Assembly (NCBI GenBank): GCA_021325025.1
Contig: JAJPHZ010000015.1
Location: 62,001-126,000 of the forward strand
DNA length: 64,000 bases
Reading direction: 5' to 3'
DNA from: Pseudomonadota bacterium
GTDB lineage: Bacteria > Desulfobacterota > Binatia > Binatales > Binataceae
The position numbers and the translations under genes were made by a program. Of the stretch, positions 6,599 through 15,300 are shown in pieces. Below the pieces are notes generated by a model. That model made no database searches. It saw nothing but the letters and a program-made list of their open reading frames with translations, and was not told the DNA's origin. Positions within the stretch are counted from its first letter, which is position 1. Each line of letters opens with the position of its first letter.

Positions 6599-7963
6599 TC
6601 AGTTGGCTTCGGGCTCGCCCAGCTTGCGATACAGGGTCTTGCGATCGATACCCAAAACCGTGGCCGCTTCGCTCTTGTTGCCGCCCACCGCGGCCAGGAT
6701 CGCGCGCGCATATTCGCGTTCGAGCTGGTCGATGGTGAGCCGGCGATTGACCGCGTCTTCGATGGTCACCGATTGCGTCTCTCCACCCGCCACTTTGGCC
6801 GGCAGGTCGGCGCGTGTGATGCGGTCATTGCGGCACAGGATGACGGCGCGCGAGATCGCGTTCTGCAACTCGCGGATGTTGCCCGGCCACGGGTAGTGGG
6901 TCAGGCAGGCGACCGCCTCGGCCGTGACCTCGGGAATCGGGCGGCCCGCCTCGGCCGCGGCGCGCGCCAGAAAATGCTTGACCAGCGGCATGATGTCTTC
7001 GGGCCGCTCGCGCAGGGGCGGCAACACCAGCGTGACGGTCGCCAGCCGGTAATAGAGGTCGGCGCGAAATCTGCCCGCGCTGATTGCTTCTTCAAGGTCG
7101 GTGTTGGTGGCCGACACGACGCGCACGTCCACCGGCGTCTCCTCGGTGGCGCCTACCGGTCGCACCCGCTTGTCTTCGATTACTCGCAGCAGCTTGGCCT
7201 GCAACAGCAGCGGCATCTCGCCGACTTCGTCCAAAAACAGGGTTCCCCCGCGCGCTGCCTGAAACAGACCGGTCTTGCTTTGCCGCGCATCGGTGAACGC
7301 GCCCTTGACGTGCCCGAACAGCTCGCTTTCCAGTAGATTGTCAGGAATCGCGGCACAGTTGACGGGGATGAAGGGGTTTTGCTGGCGCCGGCTGCGGAAA
7401 TGCAGCGCCCGCGCAATCAACTCCTTGCCCGTACCGCTTTCGCCCGCCAGCAGAACGCTGGCCGCGCTATCGGCAATCTGGCCGACAATCTCCAGCACCT
7501 CGGTCATCTTGCGGCTGACCGCGATGATGTTCTCCAGACCGTAGCTGTGGGCCAACTCGCCGCGCAGGCGGCGGATCTCCTGGCGCAGATTGCGATCTTC
7601 CAGCGCGCGCGACACCACCAGCAGCAGTTCGTCGCTGGAAAACGGCTTGGTGATGTAATCGAACGCGCCCAACTTCATCGATTCCACCGCAGTCTGAATC
7701 GAGCCGAAGGCGGTGATGATTATCACCGGCAGATTGGGTGCCACGCGCTTGATCTCGGCCTGCAACTGATGGCCGCTCATACCCACCATGCGCAAGTCGG
7801 TGATTACCAGTTCGGGACGTTCGCGCTTGATCAGGTTGAGCGCATCGGTGCCGGAGTTGGCAGCCAGTGCCCGGTAGCCGGCAGAGCCGAGAATTTCGAC
7901 CAGCACACTGGCCATCTCACGGTCGTCATCGACGACCACAATCGTATTGCGTTCCCCTTCCAT
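6599..7963 (-). CDS. Sigma54-dependent response regulator, NtrC/ZraR type
   Basis: 454 residues with the full three-domain layout. The receiver has acidic VDDD, phosphoacceptor D56 in VITDLRM and Lys106 in ITKPF. The AAA+ domain has GESGTGKE (Walker A), GAFTDA (sigma54-contact loop, GAFTGA with one change) and FLDEVGEMP (Walker B). A Fis-type helix-turn-helix is at the end (NKSEAATVLGIDRKTLYRKL). It begins 2 bp after the histidine kinase stop, so the two are one operon. It is divergent from a heavy-metal efflux operon with sigma54-type promoters between, pointing to control of that operon, as ZraSR controls zraP. Confidence 0.94.
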   Translation of the reverse strand: MEGERNTIVVVDDDREMASVLVEILGSAGYRALAANSGTDALNLIKRERPELVITDLRMVGMSGHQLQAEIKRVAPNLPVIIITAFGSIQTAVESMKLGAFDYITKPFSSDELLLVVSRALEDRNLRQEIRRLRGELAHSYGLENIIAVSRKMTEVLEIVGQIADSAASVLLAGESGTGKELIARALHFRSRRQQNPFIPVNCAAIPDNLLESELFGHVKGAFTDARQSKTGLFQAARGGTLFLDEVGEMPLLLQAKLLRVIEDKRVRPVGATEETPVDVRVVSATNTDLEEAISAGRFRADLYYRLATVTLVLPPLRERPEDIMPLVKHFLARAAAEAGRPIPEVTAEAVACLTHYPWPGNIRELQNAISRAVILCRNDRITRADLPAKVAGGETQSVTIEDAVNRRLTIDQLEREYARAILAAVGGNKSEAATVLGIDRKTLYRKLGEPEAN

Positions 7964-7965
7964 CT

Positions 7966-9435
7966 TCAGGCACTGGCCGCGAGTTCGGTCTCGCGGCGAT
8001 GCGAGCGCGCCAGCGTGACCACAAACCGCGTCCCGCGTGGACGTGCTTCCACAGTGATCTCGCCGTCGTGGTCGCGAATGATCGACTGGCTGACCGCCAG
8101 ACCCATGCCGGTCCCCTTGCCTGGATCCTTGGTGGTAAAGAACGGGTCGAAGACCCGCTCTCTGACTTCCTCGCTGATACCAGGGCCGTCGTCTTCAAAG
8201 CTCAGACGCACCTGCTCGCCTTCCTCAGCCGTAACCGGCCGGGCGCTGACGCGCAATACGCCTCCGCTCTGTGCCATCGCATCCAGCGCATTCATCCCCA
8301 GGTTGACGAATACCTGTTGCATCTGGTCCGCGTCGCAGTCCACCAGCAGCGGCACCGGACCAAGGTCGCTGACCAAGCGGATATTGCGCCGCTCGGCCTC
8401 GGTCTCCAGAAGGTGCAGGGTACGGTGCACGATCGAGCGTACGTCGCTGGTCACCCGCACCGGCTCGCGCCGGCGCCCGAAGTCCAGCAGCATCCGCACG
8501 ATGCGCGTGATGCGGTCGATCTGGTTAATAATGATCTCCAGCCCCTGGGCCAGCTTGCGCTCGTCGGGGTTGCTACGCAGCAGATGTTCGGCCCGGCCCC
8601 GGATTACTCCCAATGGAGTGCCGATTTCGTGGGCCAGTCCCGAGGCCAGCGTGCCGATCGTTGCCAGCTTGTCGGAATGGCGCAGGCGGCGCTCCAACTC
8701 CAGCTTGCGCTCACTTTCGTCCAACAGTCGCCGGCGTGCCACGCTCAGCTCCCGCGCCAGCTTGCGGAACTCTTCGGTGATCAGCGTAACTTCATCACCG
8801 GCCGGCTCACGGTCCGGCTCTTCGCCTGACGACAAGGCGCTGACCCGCCGCGATAGCTCGGCCAGAGGACGCGAGACGTACTTGCGCGCCACCAGCGGGA
8901 TCAGGATAGTGGTCAGCAAGATCACCACTATCCCGGCCATGATCGAGGAAACCGTGCGGCGATAAAGGTCGTGCTGGACCTCGCTCCAATCCTGGGCCAC
9001 CAGCAGGTAGCCCAGCGACGGGTCGCCCATCGGTGCGATGCGGCAAAACCAGAACCGGCCCGCCGCAGTCTGGGTGAACTCGCTGCTGCCATTTTCCCTG
9101 ACCTGCAACGCGATCTCCTCGGGCGCCGGCAGCTTGATCGGGAAGTCGGGCAGCGAGTACCAGAGTCTGGCCGACTTATCCAGCACCGCCACCGCCATCC
9201 CCTGCTCGGAGATGGTCTCCAGCACCGAACGGATATCGCCCCACTCCGAGCGTTGAACGTCGAGCTTGATCGCCTGGTTGAGCGCCAGTTCCGTGGCCCG
9301 CGTCTCCCGCTTGAGGTCTTGTTCGAAAATTCGCGACGAGGTGCGCACACGGTTGTAGGTGTAAACCGACACCACCGGGGTCAGCGCGGCCATCAGTCCG
9401 ATAGCAAGCCGTGTTCCGACCTTCATTTCAGGCAT
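7966..9435 (-). CDS. Membrane sensor histidine kinase, partner of the NtrC-type regulator
   Basis: 489 residues from ATG 9435 (AGGG six bases upstream). A membrane segment (about 8-25) precedes a roughly 135-residue periplasmic sensor, a second membrane segment (164-183) and a HAMP region. HisKA has phosphoacceptor His269 in SGLAHEIGTPLG. The ATPase has N, G1 and G2 boxes (NLGMNALDAM, DDGPGISEE, GTGMGLAVSQSII). The layout matches ZraS/AtoS-type kinases. The ligand is not evident from the sequence; a metal ion is inferred from the divergent RND operon. The frame extends upstream to 9588 but that part shows no homology. Confidence 0.92.
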   Translation of the reverse strand: MPEMKVGTRLAIGLMAALTPVVSVYTYNRVRTSSRIFEQDLKRETRATELALNQAIKLDVQRSEWGDIRSVLETISEQGMAVAVLDKSARLWYSLPDFPIKLPAPEEIALQVRENGSSEFTQTAAGRFWFCRIAPMGDPSLGYLLVAQDWSEVQHDLYRRTVSSIMAGIVVILLTTILIPLVARKYVSRPLAELSRRVSALSSGEEPDREPAGDEVTLITEEFRKLARELSVARRRLLDESERKLELERRLRHSDKLATIGTLASGLAHEIGTPLGVIRGRAEHLLRSNPDERKLAQGLEIIINQIDRITRIVRMLLDFGRRREPVRVTSDVRSIVHRTLHLLETEAERRNIRLVSDLGPVPLLVDCDADQMQQVFVNLGMNALDAMAQSGGVLRVSARPVTAEEGEQVRLSFEDDGPGISEEVRERVFDPFFTTKDPGKGTGMGLAVSQSIIRDHDGEITVEARPRGTRFVVTLARSHRRETELAASA

Positions 9436-9507
9436 TTTAGCCCTAAATCGCGCCCAACGGGACAGGGTTGGAGTATCCAAAAGCGGAGGCCCCCAAAAAC
9501 GGGCGGC

Positions 9508-9523
9508 GCCAATTGTATGCCAG
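9508..9523 (-). promoter_or_regulatory. Candidate sigma54 promoter for the kinase/regulator operon
   Basis: On the minus strand TGGCATACAATTGGC keeps the GG-N10-GC spacing and the TGGCA block of the -24/-12 consensus; the -12 half is TGGC rather than TTGC. Predicted transcription would begin near 9497, giving a leader of about 60 bases to ATG 9435. It is weaker than the divergent site at 9685. Confidence 0.45.
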
Positions 9524-9578
9524 AGTTTGAATCCAACAGAGCCATCATTTCCGGACGGTCTGCCACGCTTTGCAACAA

Positions 9579-9619
9579 CGTGTAGCAATTCAACACGGCC
9601 AGATGGGGAAAAATTCCCC
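9579..9619. promoter_or_regulatory. Two dyads, candidate enhancer for divergent sigma54 promoters
   Basis: CGTGT-N9-ACACG occupies 9579-9597, and GGGGAAAAATTCCCC, a perfect 6-base-arm dyad, occupies 9605-9619. Both lie centrally between the divergent promoter candidates at 9508 and 9685, about 70-110 bp from each -24 element, where activator sites of NtrC-type regulators usually fall. Confidence 0.4.
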
Positions 9620-9684
9620 GCTCTACTCGACGTTTTACGCCCGCGGTCGCAAAAACATCTACGATTTAACCCTCAGCGCGATTC

Positions 9685-9701
9685 GTGGCCCGCACTTTGC
9701 T
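9685..9701 (+). promoter_or_regulatory. Sigma54 promoter of the TolC/CzcB/CzcA operon
   Basis: GTGGCCCGCACTTTGCT matches the TGGCACG-N4-TTGCT consensus at all but one specified base (A to C), with exact GG-N10-GC spacing. The start of transcription is predicted near 9711, with a leader of about 88 bases to ATG 9800. The neighbouring divergent gene is a sigma54 activator. Confidence 0.7.
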
Positions 9702-9799
9702 GGGTTCAAATCCGCGACGTGGTTGGTAGGTTTTTAATTGGGTGGTCCAACCCGCAGCGGCACGTTTGCCCCAAGAGCGGTGCCAAACTGTTCGACATC

Positions 9800-11059
9800 A
9801 TGCTGCGCGGGTTAAAATCGGCAGCCTTGGTCTTGCTGACGGTGCTGGGGACGGCGGCGGTTTCCGCACCGGGGCGCGCTGAACAGGTTTCATTGCAGCA
9901 AGCGCTGGAGATGATGCGCCGGCACAATCCCGATTTGTCCGCCGTGCGCCAGGAGTTGACTGTCGCCCGGGGCGAATTGCAAAAGGCCAGCTATCTGACC
10001 CCGTTCAACTTTGAATTGATCGGCGAAGCCGACTACAAGGCCCGCGATGGGCGTTCCAATTCCCAGGATTGGCGGGTCGGCTTTATCCAGGAATTCGAGA
10101 TCTTCGGTCAACGCGCGCTGCGCCGCAACAGCGCCCGCATCGGACTGGACGCCAGCGCCGCGCAACTAAGCGATCAGGCGCGCCTGCTCGAGGGCGCTAC
10201 CAAGATGACCTTTTACGACGCGATGCGTGCCCGCGACCAGCTCGAGTTGTTGTCGGAACTGGCCAAGCTCGATCTCAACCTGGTCGAGGCGGCACGCACG
10301 CGGCTGGAGGCCGGCGAGATCAACCAGGTCGAATACAATTCCGCGCAAATCCGCTACGGGCAGAGCCATCGTGCGGTGGTTGCGGGCGGCGAACGCTACC
10401 GCCTGGTCCGCTCCAGCCTGGGCCGCCTGCTGGGCGGGAGCGCCGGGGCCGAACCCGAGCCCTCGGGCCGGACCACCGTCCAACCGATACAGGTCGAGAT
10501 CGAAAGCCTGATCGAGGGAGCACGGCGCAATCGTCCCGATCTGCGCGCACGCCAGCTCGCGATCGCGCAGCTTGACAGCGAGATTGCGCTCAACCAGCGG
10601 CTCAACTACCCCAATCCCGCGATCGGTATGTTCTTCGGCCACGATAACAACACCGAACATTTCATCGGCCCACTGTTCGGATTTTCCCTTCCGCTGTTTA
10701 ACCGGCGGGTGGGCGAGGCGACCATCCTGGCCGGCCGCCGCGCCCAGGCCAAGGACCAACTGCGCGCCACCGAGCTGACCGTCGAGCAGCAGGTGCGCGA
10801 CGCCTATAACAACTACCTCACCGCGCGCCAGACGCTGCGGATTTATCAGGACGAGGTGGTGGTGCCGGCGCGCCAGAGCTTCGGCTTGCTGGAAACCGCG
10901 TTTACCGAAGGCAAAATCGATCTGCTCCGCCTGGCGATCGCCGAGCGCGAGGCCTTTGAGGCCCGGATGGCTTATGTCGATGCCTGGTTCGAGGTGCTCG
11001 CCGCGCAGGTTGCAATCGAGCTGGCCACCGGCACTCCACTCCAGAGTACGTCACCGTGA
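9800..11059 (+). CDS. TolC/CusC-family outer-membrane efflux protein
   Basis: Trimeric outer-membrane exit duct of a tripartite pump. A signal peptide (residues 1-28, ending near APGRAEQ) is followed by the duplicated OEP repeat, with long coiled helices (for example LNLVEAARTRLEAGEINQVE and LLETAFTEGKIDLLRLAIA). The 419-residue length fits the family. ATG 9800 gives a clean signal peptide; the longer frame from 9527 has no such feature. Its stop overlaps the GTG start of the adaptor gene by 4 bases. Confidence 0.9.
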   Translation: MLRGLKSAALVLLTVLGTAAVSAPGRAEQVSLQQALEMMRRHNPDLSAVRQELTVARGELQKASYLTPFNFELIGEADYKARDGRSNSQDWRVGFIQEFEIFGQRALRRNSARIGLDASAAQLSDQARLLEGATKMTFYDAMRARDQLELLSELAKLDLNLVEAARTRLEAGEINQVEYNSAQIRYGQSHRAVVAGGERYRLVRSSLGRLLGGSAGAEPEPSGRTTVQPIQVEIESLIEGARRNRPDLRARQLAIAQLDSEIALNQRLNYPNPAIGMFFGHDNNTEHFIGPLFGFSLPLFNRRVGEATILAGRRAQAKDQLRATELTVEQQVRDAYNNYLTARQTLRIYQDEVVVPARQSFGLLETAFTEGKIDLLRLAIAEREAFEARMAYVDAWFEVLAAQVAIELATGTPLQSTSP

Positions 11060-12195
11060 TCATGCGAAGGCATCTGTTTGGGTTGTGTGTGGCGGCGGTG
11101 TTGCTCGCACCGCCCAGTGTGTGGGCTGTGGAGCAGCCGGCCGCGCCGGTGCTCAAGCTCGATCCTCGCTCCGAATCCGACCATCAGATCAAAGTCGTCA
11201 CCATCGGCAAGAAGCGCCTGGGCGACCTGATTTCCGCCACCGCCACCATCGAGCCCGACCCGCGCGAGGTGGCCCGCGTCACGCCGCGCATCCGCGCCCG
11301 CGTGGTGCGTCTAATCGCCGATCCCGGCCAGCGCGTCAAGCCTGGCGAGCCGTTGGCAATCCTGAGCAGTATCGAACTGGGTCAAGCCAAGACCGAATAC
11401 CTCAAGACGCGCGCGCTGACTGACATCGCCCGCCAGCACCTGGAGCGCGAAGAGAGCCTTTACAAACGCAAGGTCGCCTCGATGAAGGACGTGTTGGAGG
11501 CGCGGGCCGCCTATGACACGGCGTTTGCTCAATACCAGGCCGCGCGCGAAACCCTCAGCCTCCTGATTCCGCCCTCCGAGGTGGCGCGCGTTGCCTGGTC
11601 CACGGCGGGCCACTCCTTGTCCGATTTCGCGCTGACTTCTCCCATCGCCGGCACCCTGGTCAAACGCGATCTGATCGTCGGCCAGATGGTGAGCGGCGAC
11701 GCCGAGGTGATTACCGTGATGAACCTCGACCACGTCTGGGTGCTGGCCAATGTTTTCGAGCATGATTTGGCCGCCCTGGCCGTAGGTGCTGCCGCGCAGA
11801 TCAAGGTCGAGGCCTGGCCCGAGCAGACTTTTGAGGGGGTGGTGTCATATCTGTCGGACACGGTCGATCCGGCCACCCGCACCGTGCAGGCGCGCATCGA
11901 CGTTCCCAATCCCGAGCATCGGCTGAAACCCGGCATGTTCGCGCACGCCGAGATCCGCACCAGCGGGGGCGGCCGCGAAGTGCTGGCCGCGCCGGCTTCT
12001 GCCATCTACGAGGTCAACGGCGCCAAGGCGGTGTTTGTGCAGACTGCGCCGCATGTCTTTACCGTGCGTCCGGTGGTGCTGGGCAGTGCCGGCCATGAAG
12101 AGGTGGAAGTCCTCTCCGGCCTGCAAAGTGGCGATCAGGTCGTAACCCACGGCGGGTTGGTGCTCAAGGCGCTGCTGGTCAACAAAGGCGACTGA
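11056..12195 (+). CDS. RND efflux periplasmic adaptor (CzcB/CusB-like)
   Basis: Membrane-fusion protein linking the inner-membrane RND pump to the TolC duct. Signal peptide, barrel-sandwich hybrid (VTPRIRARVVRLIADPGQRV and IAGTLVKRDLIVGQMVSGD), alpha-hairpin (about 110-165), beta-barrel (HVWVLANVFEHDLAALAVG) and membrane-proximal domain are all visible in order. GTG 11056 overlaps the upstream stop (GTGA); ATG 11062 is an alternative. It is three bases from the RND gene, so all three are co-translated. Confidence 0.92.
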   Translation: MIMRRHLFGLCVAAVLLAPPSVWAVEQPAAPVLKLDPRSESDHQIKVVTIGKKRLGDLISATATIEPDPREVARVTPRIRARVVRLIADPGQRVKPGEPLAILSSIELGQAKTEYLKTRALTDIARQHLEREESLYKRKVASMKDVLEARAAYDTAFAQYQAARETLSLLIPPSEVARVAWSTAGHSLSDFALTSPIAGTLVKRDLIVGQMVSGDAEVITVMNLDHVWVLANVFEHDLAALAVGAAAQIKVEAWPEQTFEGVVSYLSDTVDPATRTVQARIDVPNPEHRLKPGMFAHAEIRTSGGGREVLAAPASAIYEVNGAKAVFVQTAPHVFTVRPVVLGSAGHEEVEVLSGLQSGDQVVTHGGLVLKALLVNKGD

Positions 12196-12198
12196 GTT

Positions 12199-15300
<3,102 letters not shown>

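Follow-up and report, generated by a model that had tools for sequence, protein, structure and literature searches.

In the window, by which we mean the whole stretch of 64,000 nucleotides that was analysed, two operons diverge from a common intergenic gap. The genes that flank it are as follows.

6599–7963, minus strand: NtrC-type response regulator, with receiver, sigma-54 activator AAA+ and Fis-type helix-turn-helix domains; recognition helix IDRKTLYRKL
7966–9426, minus strand: membrane sensor histidine kinase with one periplasmic Cache/PDC-type domain; the ATG at 9426 is the likely start
9800–11059, plus strand: czcC-like gene for an outer-membrane channel (PF02321); the ATG at 9800 is the likely start
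11056–12195, plus strand: czcB-like gene for a periplasmic adaptor (PF16576)
12199–15300, plus strand: czcA-like gene for a heavy-metal RND pump; the closest solved structure is that of ZneA

The CzcA protein scores 1112 bits against the heavy-metal RND family TIGR00914 (CzcA/CusA), well above the cut-off of 701.45, and the solved structures of ZneA and CusA match it with 732 and 546 bits, respectively. The adaptor and the outer-membrane channel are encoded in the same operon, which is thus predicted to encode a heavy-metal RND pump of the CzcA/ZneA type. Family cut-off and structure match both agree with the CzcCBA-type output that had been named in a preliminary description of this DNA.

The domain set of the regulator is that of a complete NtrC-family protein (PF00072, PF00158 and PF02954 are all above cut-off). 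Its sigma-54 contact loop reads GAFTDA, not GAFTGA, as is the case in 14 of the 15 window-family regulators that were read (those of L048, L172 and L173 are left out of this count and of the helix count given below); the sole exception, with GAFTGA, is the regulator of G022. The same aspartate is present in all nine regulators read from other families, and GAFTDA is listed among the loop variants that should remain active in Desulfovibrio vulgaris, according to the accessible part of PMC4641369. The genome of the window encodes sigma-54 itself (one gene match, PF04552, E 1.1e-62) and about 27 sigma-54 activators (30 matches to PF00158, three of them weak).

The periplasmic sensor domain of the kinase is predicted to adopt a single Cache/PDC fold (mean pLDDT 83). 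It matches the sensor domains of WalK, TlpB, KinD and CusS, the metal-binding CusS sensor with Z 10.1 and rmsd 2.8 over 115 aligned residues; many Cache/PDC domains match with a similar score, and the shared fold names no ligand and shows no function. A conserved histidine was looked for in this domain, and none was seen.

Predicted promoters and dyads in the gap

The gap contains the following elements.

9507–9522, minus strand: -24/-12 site facing the kinase operon, TGGCATACAATTGGCG, four mismatches, with the key GG and GC intact
9579–9597, no strand: dyad 1, CGTGTAGCAATTCAACACG, a putative second copy of the operator, weak, at a distance of one 23-bp step from the main copy
9604–9620, no strand: dyad 2, the putative main operator, TGGGGAAAAATTCCCCG; the dyad proper, GGGGAAAAATTCCCC, spans 9605–9619
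9686–9701, plus strand: -24/-12 site facing the pump operon, TGGCCCGCACTTTGCT, one mismatch to TGGCACGNNNNTTGCW

The preliminary description had placed a one-mismatch -24/-12 site facing the efflux operon at 9685–9701, a weaker one facing the kinase at 9508–9523, and two central dyads at 9579–9597 and 9605–9619. The first site is confirmed, with slightly different limits, and a plus-strand site with at most one mismatch appears in just 6 of 5000 simulated gaps. The weaker site and both dyads are also present in the sequence. About half of the 5000 simulated gaps, however, hold some site on either strand with at most four mismatches, so that the kinase-facing site is not significant alone, and six short dyads are an ordinary number for such a gap (simulated mean 5.3). 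Throughout the window, 18 matches to the -24/-12 pattern with at most one mismatch were found for 12.7 expected, which means that such matches by themselves say little. Without comparison with relatives, only the pump-facing site would stand; it is conservation in relatives that lifts the kinase-facing site and the dyads above chance.

The elements that define a sigma-54 promoter are all in place: the GG at -24, the GC at -12, the right spacing, and a candidate activator site upstream. No sigma-70-like promoter was found within 9400–9830 (the mean in shuffled sequences is 0.2).

Conservation of the putative operator and promoters

Close members of the kinase family are found at 18 loci, including that of the window, in 17 of the 41 genomes of the same family, and upstream of the kinase these 18 loci carry a 17-bp palindrome, TGGGGCAaatTGCCCCA, together with -24/-12 sites. 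The operator counts leave out L054 (G027), which has a weaker kinase match and no regulator match in the fetched stretch, and the window-family counts leave out L055–L058, which belong to other families. A de novo search for palindromic motifs in 17 gaps returned TGGGGCAaatTGCCCCA with a log-likelihood of 83.0, compared to 37.4 at most in 12 shuffled sets; L040, where the pump is lost, was kept out of this search, and the operators of L042 and L044 lie further from the kinase than the regions that were used.

With the resulting model, dyad 2 scores 21.1, and still 20.2 when its own genus is left out of the training. The site in dyad 1 (9581–9597) scores 7.7 with this model and 11.3 with the model of the sister family described below. 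The idea that the two dyads form a shared central operator is supported as regards dyad 2, which is strongly conserved; dyad 1 is a weak copy one 23-bp step away. Alignment shows the same 23-bp step in both congeners, and many loci have two operator copies, 21–23 or 31–34 bp apart.

Sites of at least 13 bits number 20 in the 10,970 bp upstream of the kinases and 4 in the 240,810 bp elsewhere (17 loci), an enrichment that is partly circular since most of the gap sites trained the model. Two tests are fairer, the search for an operator upstream of the pump, described in the next section, and the search for the best site of a whole locus with the test genus left out of the training. In the latter, the best site falls upstream of the kinase at 14 of the 18 loci. 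For two of the other four, the higher-scoring site is at another apparent target: G005 has it upstream of its relocated pump, and G023 downstream of its regulator.

Regarding the promoters, an alignment of all three species of the window's genus matches up both the kinase-facing ATGCCA and the main operator. The aligned kinase-facing site has two mismatches each in G001 and G002, against four in the window; the pump-facing site aligns between the window and G001, and G002 reads AG at the GG position. Both promoters align likewise in two other genera. A kinase-facing site with at most four mismatches is present at all 18 kinase loci, with at most two at 13 of them, and one-mismatch sites occur in several further genera. 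The pump-facing site has intact GG and GC at six of nine divergent pump loci; the other three, from one genus, keep the aligned TGGCACG with an altered -12 element. Comparison of the gap in relatives, which had been proposed as a check, therefore finds the operator and both promoters recurring across genera; it supports the weaker kinase-facing site, and with it the earlier proposal of divergent sigma-54 promoters that share an operator.

The pump and the kinase across the family

At nine of the 18 loci the kinase diverges from a CzcCBA operon; at seven others the fetched stretch contains no pump, which indicates that the switch is not bound to this output. In G005 the pump lies upstream of the kinase, in the same direction. 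In G002 it has been lost: a 42-codon remnant of CzcA persists (L040, 8025–8141, numbered with the kinase on the minus strand), the kinase and regulator are intact, and the operator and the kinase promoter are still there. The AG in place of GG in this genome fits the decay of a promoter whose gene vanished, as seen in one sequence.

Over the 41 genomes, 12 have both a pump orthologue and the kinase, five the kinase only, three the pump only and 21 neither (Fisher p 0.0002, in a test that ignores the tree; the genomes are related, so that the counts are not independent). In genomes that have the switch, an operator of at least 12 bits lies upstream of 10 of 11 pump operons, including the pump of G014, which is apart from the regulator, and the relocated one of G005, whose pump-facing box has four mismatches. 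The operator is approximately 165–275 bp ahead of the pump gene in these ten operons, with the -24 element nearer the gene. The linked pump of G018 has a weak operator candidate only (7.1 bits, at -216), and G025, whose pump contig is too short, was left out. By contrast, none of three other pump operons (G059, G013 and G003) has an operator of at least 12 bits upstream; G059 and G013 are without the kinase, and the kinase of G003 is a separate branch. When 500-bp stretches are drawn at random from these loci, 3.7% of them contain a 12-bit site. A CzcA relative was found at 1 of 80 unrelated kinase loci, with 25% identity, a figure which says little because these loci were chosen by generic kinase motifs.

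We also note that the CzcA frame of G010 (L197, G010:C30:40732-43818) contains one in-frame TAG, which may be a mutation or a sequencing error.

A sister family and the recognition helix

Another family of the class also has homologous kinase–regulator pairs, with a regulator about 52% identical. At all seven loci read (L258–L264), a sigma-54 site is followed by a gene, divergent from the kinase/regulator pair, for a predicted exported peptide of 40–50 residues (for example 9446–9592 in L261, numbered with the kinase on the minus strand). The peptide consists of a signal peptide, then AQE.P...PKPEKP.E, with a tail rich in proline, glutamate and lysine. The plus-facing -24/-12 site is a perfect match in L261 and has two mismatches in L258–L260 and L262–L264.

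An independent motif search in the seven sister gaps returned TGTTGCAAATTGCAACA (59.2, against 31.7 at most in 10 shuffled sets), which has the same length and the same core as TGGGGCAaatTGCCCCA, with TT replacing GG. The recognition helix reads RKTLYR in all 15 window-family regulators that were read, and RTTLYR in all seven from the sister family (L249, L257 and L259 being left out of the latter count). We predict that the lysine pairs with the GG half-site in the window family and the threonine with TT in the sister family; this link between residue and operator is put forward as a prediction since it apparently reflects a single evolutionary change. The held-out sister locus L055, which was outside the training of the second motif, fits it, with two sister-type sites 20 bp apart. 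Regulators of other families carry K or R, and among six other-family loci that were scored, three have, upstream of the kinase, a window-type site of moderate score (11.4–12.4 bits) and three have none.

The outputs differ between lineages: the exported peptide in the sister family, a 61-residue protein in G022 and, in a large part of the window's family, the CzcCBA pump. It may be that we are dealing with a modular sigma-54 switch whose output is swapped between lineages and whose DNA specificity is recoded mainly by one residue of the recognition helix, a tentative reading to which we give just short of an even chance.

Search for other targets in the genome of the window

Genome-wide, and with one mismatch allowed, the operator pattern has 52 matches and the reversed pattern used as a control has 14. 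We read this difference as a general excess of palindromes plus a few real sites, and the hypothesis of a wider regulon was rejected. Among the matches listed, only the gap of the window has a strong operator and a strong sigma-54 site together, with two weak pairs besides (L067 and L238), which suggests that the regulator is dedicated, like ZraR in E. coli as described in the accessible part of PMC8249747.

Proposed mechanism and alternatives

We consider it very probable that the locus is an autoregulated, two-way sigma-54 two-component switch with a metal pump as its output. The membrane kinase would sense a periplasmic signal, probably an excess of divalent metal, and, judging from the protein families, phosphorylate the NtrC-type regulator. 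The latter would bind the palindrome at 9604–9620, aided by the weaker copy at 9579–9597, and from this shared position it would activate sigma-54 RNA polymerase on both promoters: the site at 9686–9701 would drive the CzcCBA pump, and that at 9507–9522 the kinase and regulator, in a positive autoregulation. Sequence comparison supports the two promoters, the conserved operator that they share, its presence at pumps that have moved and its absence where there is no switch. That the signal is a metal, on the other hand, we infer from the pump.

It is on this last point that the most serious alternative bears, namely that the system responds primarily to envelope stress or to another periplasmic signal, and that the pump is an optional output and metal not the cognate signal. 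This is a real possibility, if somewhat less than an even one: seven of the 18 kinase loci have no linked pump, the output in the sister family is a tiny exported peptide instead, the sensor has a general Cache/PDC fold, and E. coli ZraSR has itself been proposed, in the available portion of PMC7657598, to serve in envelope stress rather than zinc resistance. Against it, pump and kinase co-occur within the window family (both in 12 of 41 genomes), the pump carries the operator even when it is unlinked, and the fold matches of the sensor include the metal-binding CusS, although the fold by itself shows no function.

It is unlikely that only the pump promoter depends on sigma-54, the kinase operon being transcribed from another promoter and 9507–9522 being a chance match. 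The four mismatches of this box, which about half of the simulated gaps can equal, would agree with that, but the aligned sites in both congeners have two mismatches, those of several other genera have one, and the gap has no sigma-70-like site. That the pump is constitutive or driven by sigma-70, with a fortuitous sigma-54 site, is very improbable: this group of organisms may rely on promoters outside the range of the scan, but position, operator and box are all found again in several genera, and loss of the pump goes with a broken box.

If the locus is the two-way switch that we favor, its behavior would follow from the polymerase involved. Since sigma-54 needs an ATP-driven activator to fire, we would expect little leakage of pump expression and a sharp response. 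The comparison yields an operator and a specificity residue, both predicted, and one natural case of loss, which make the rewiring of regulators in this class directly testable.

Relation to known systems

The arrangement resembles zraP/zraSR of E. coli and Salmonella, where a kinase and an NtrC-family sigma-54 regulator are divergent from an output for periplasmic stress; as far as the accessible text of two studies goes, the ZraR-type regulator has a single intergenic spacer as its binding site and controls its own expression (PMC8249747, PMC7657598). The output in the window is a CzcCBA pump, not a divergent zraP. The regulator scores 389.9 bits against the ZraR family (NCBIfam NF007689, cut-off 760), and the kinase 165.6 bits, through the kinase core only, against the ZraS family (NF007688, cut-off 479); the GAFTDA loop in place of GAFTGA is another difference from zraSR. 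The term ZraSR-like used in the preliminary description is hence justified for the layout and the general family, and does not extend to membership of the ZraR and ZraS families. The tiny exported peptide of the sister family is a new candidate for an output, or a feedback partner, of a ZraSR-like system.

Well-known metal RND pumps are described under OmpR-type two-component control. The regulators of CzcRS, ZneRS and ZniRS are of this type and act with sigma-70-family polymerase, whereas that of the window is NtrC-type and its promoters are of the -24/-12 type. These three two-component pairs of Cupriavidus are listed with heavy-metal RND pump loci in the accessible part of PMC2864759. ZneCAB and CusCBA belong to the same pump superfamily as the pump of the window; their regulation differs.

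As regards NtrC-type regulators in metal tolerance, the closest precedent that we found is the two-component system CorSR of Myxococcus xanthus, whose sigma-54-type response regulator controls metal-tolerance genes, an exporter among them. Its target (curA) is, in the available portion of the source (PMC3707914), a copper operon of nine genes that encodes a P-type ATPase and a multicopper oxidase and has corSR within it; it is not a divergent RND pump. Our literature search found no report of an NtrC-type pair and sigma-54 controlling an RND metal pump, which is weak evidence of novelty since most subscription journals lay outside its coverage.

Small open reading frames near the operator in relatives

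Small open reading frames are found next to the operator in several relatives. In G022, what the switch faces in place of the pump is an ORF for a small protein of 61 residues, membrane-bound or exported (L041, 7995–8180), with two operators and a sigma-54 site of one mismatch ahead of it. G023 has, immediately downstream of the regulator, a small ORF that contains two CxxC pairs; it is preceded by a second operator (15.3 bits) with a sigma-54 site that has one mismatch (L046, 2544–3022, numbered with the kinase on the minus strand). Last, two loci of one genus (L042, 5221–5517, and L044, 8255–8671) have an ORF of about 95–138 residues with a CPAC motif, which sits between the operator/sigma-54 site and the kinase.
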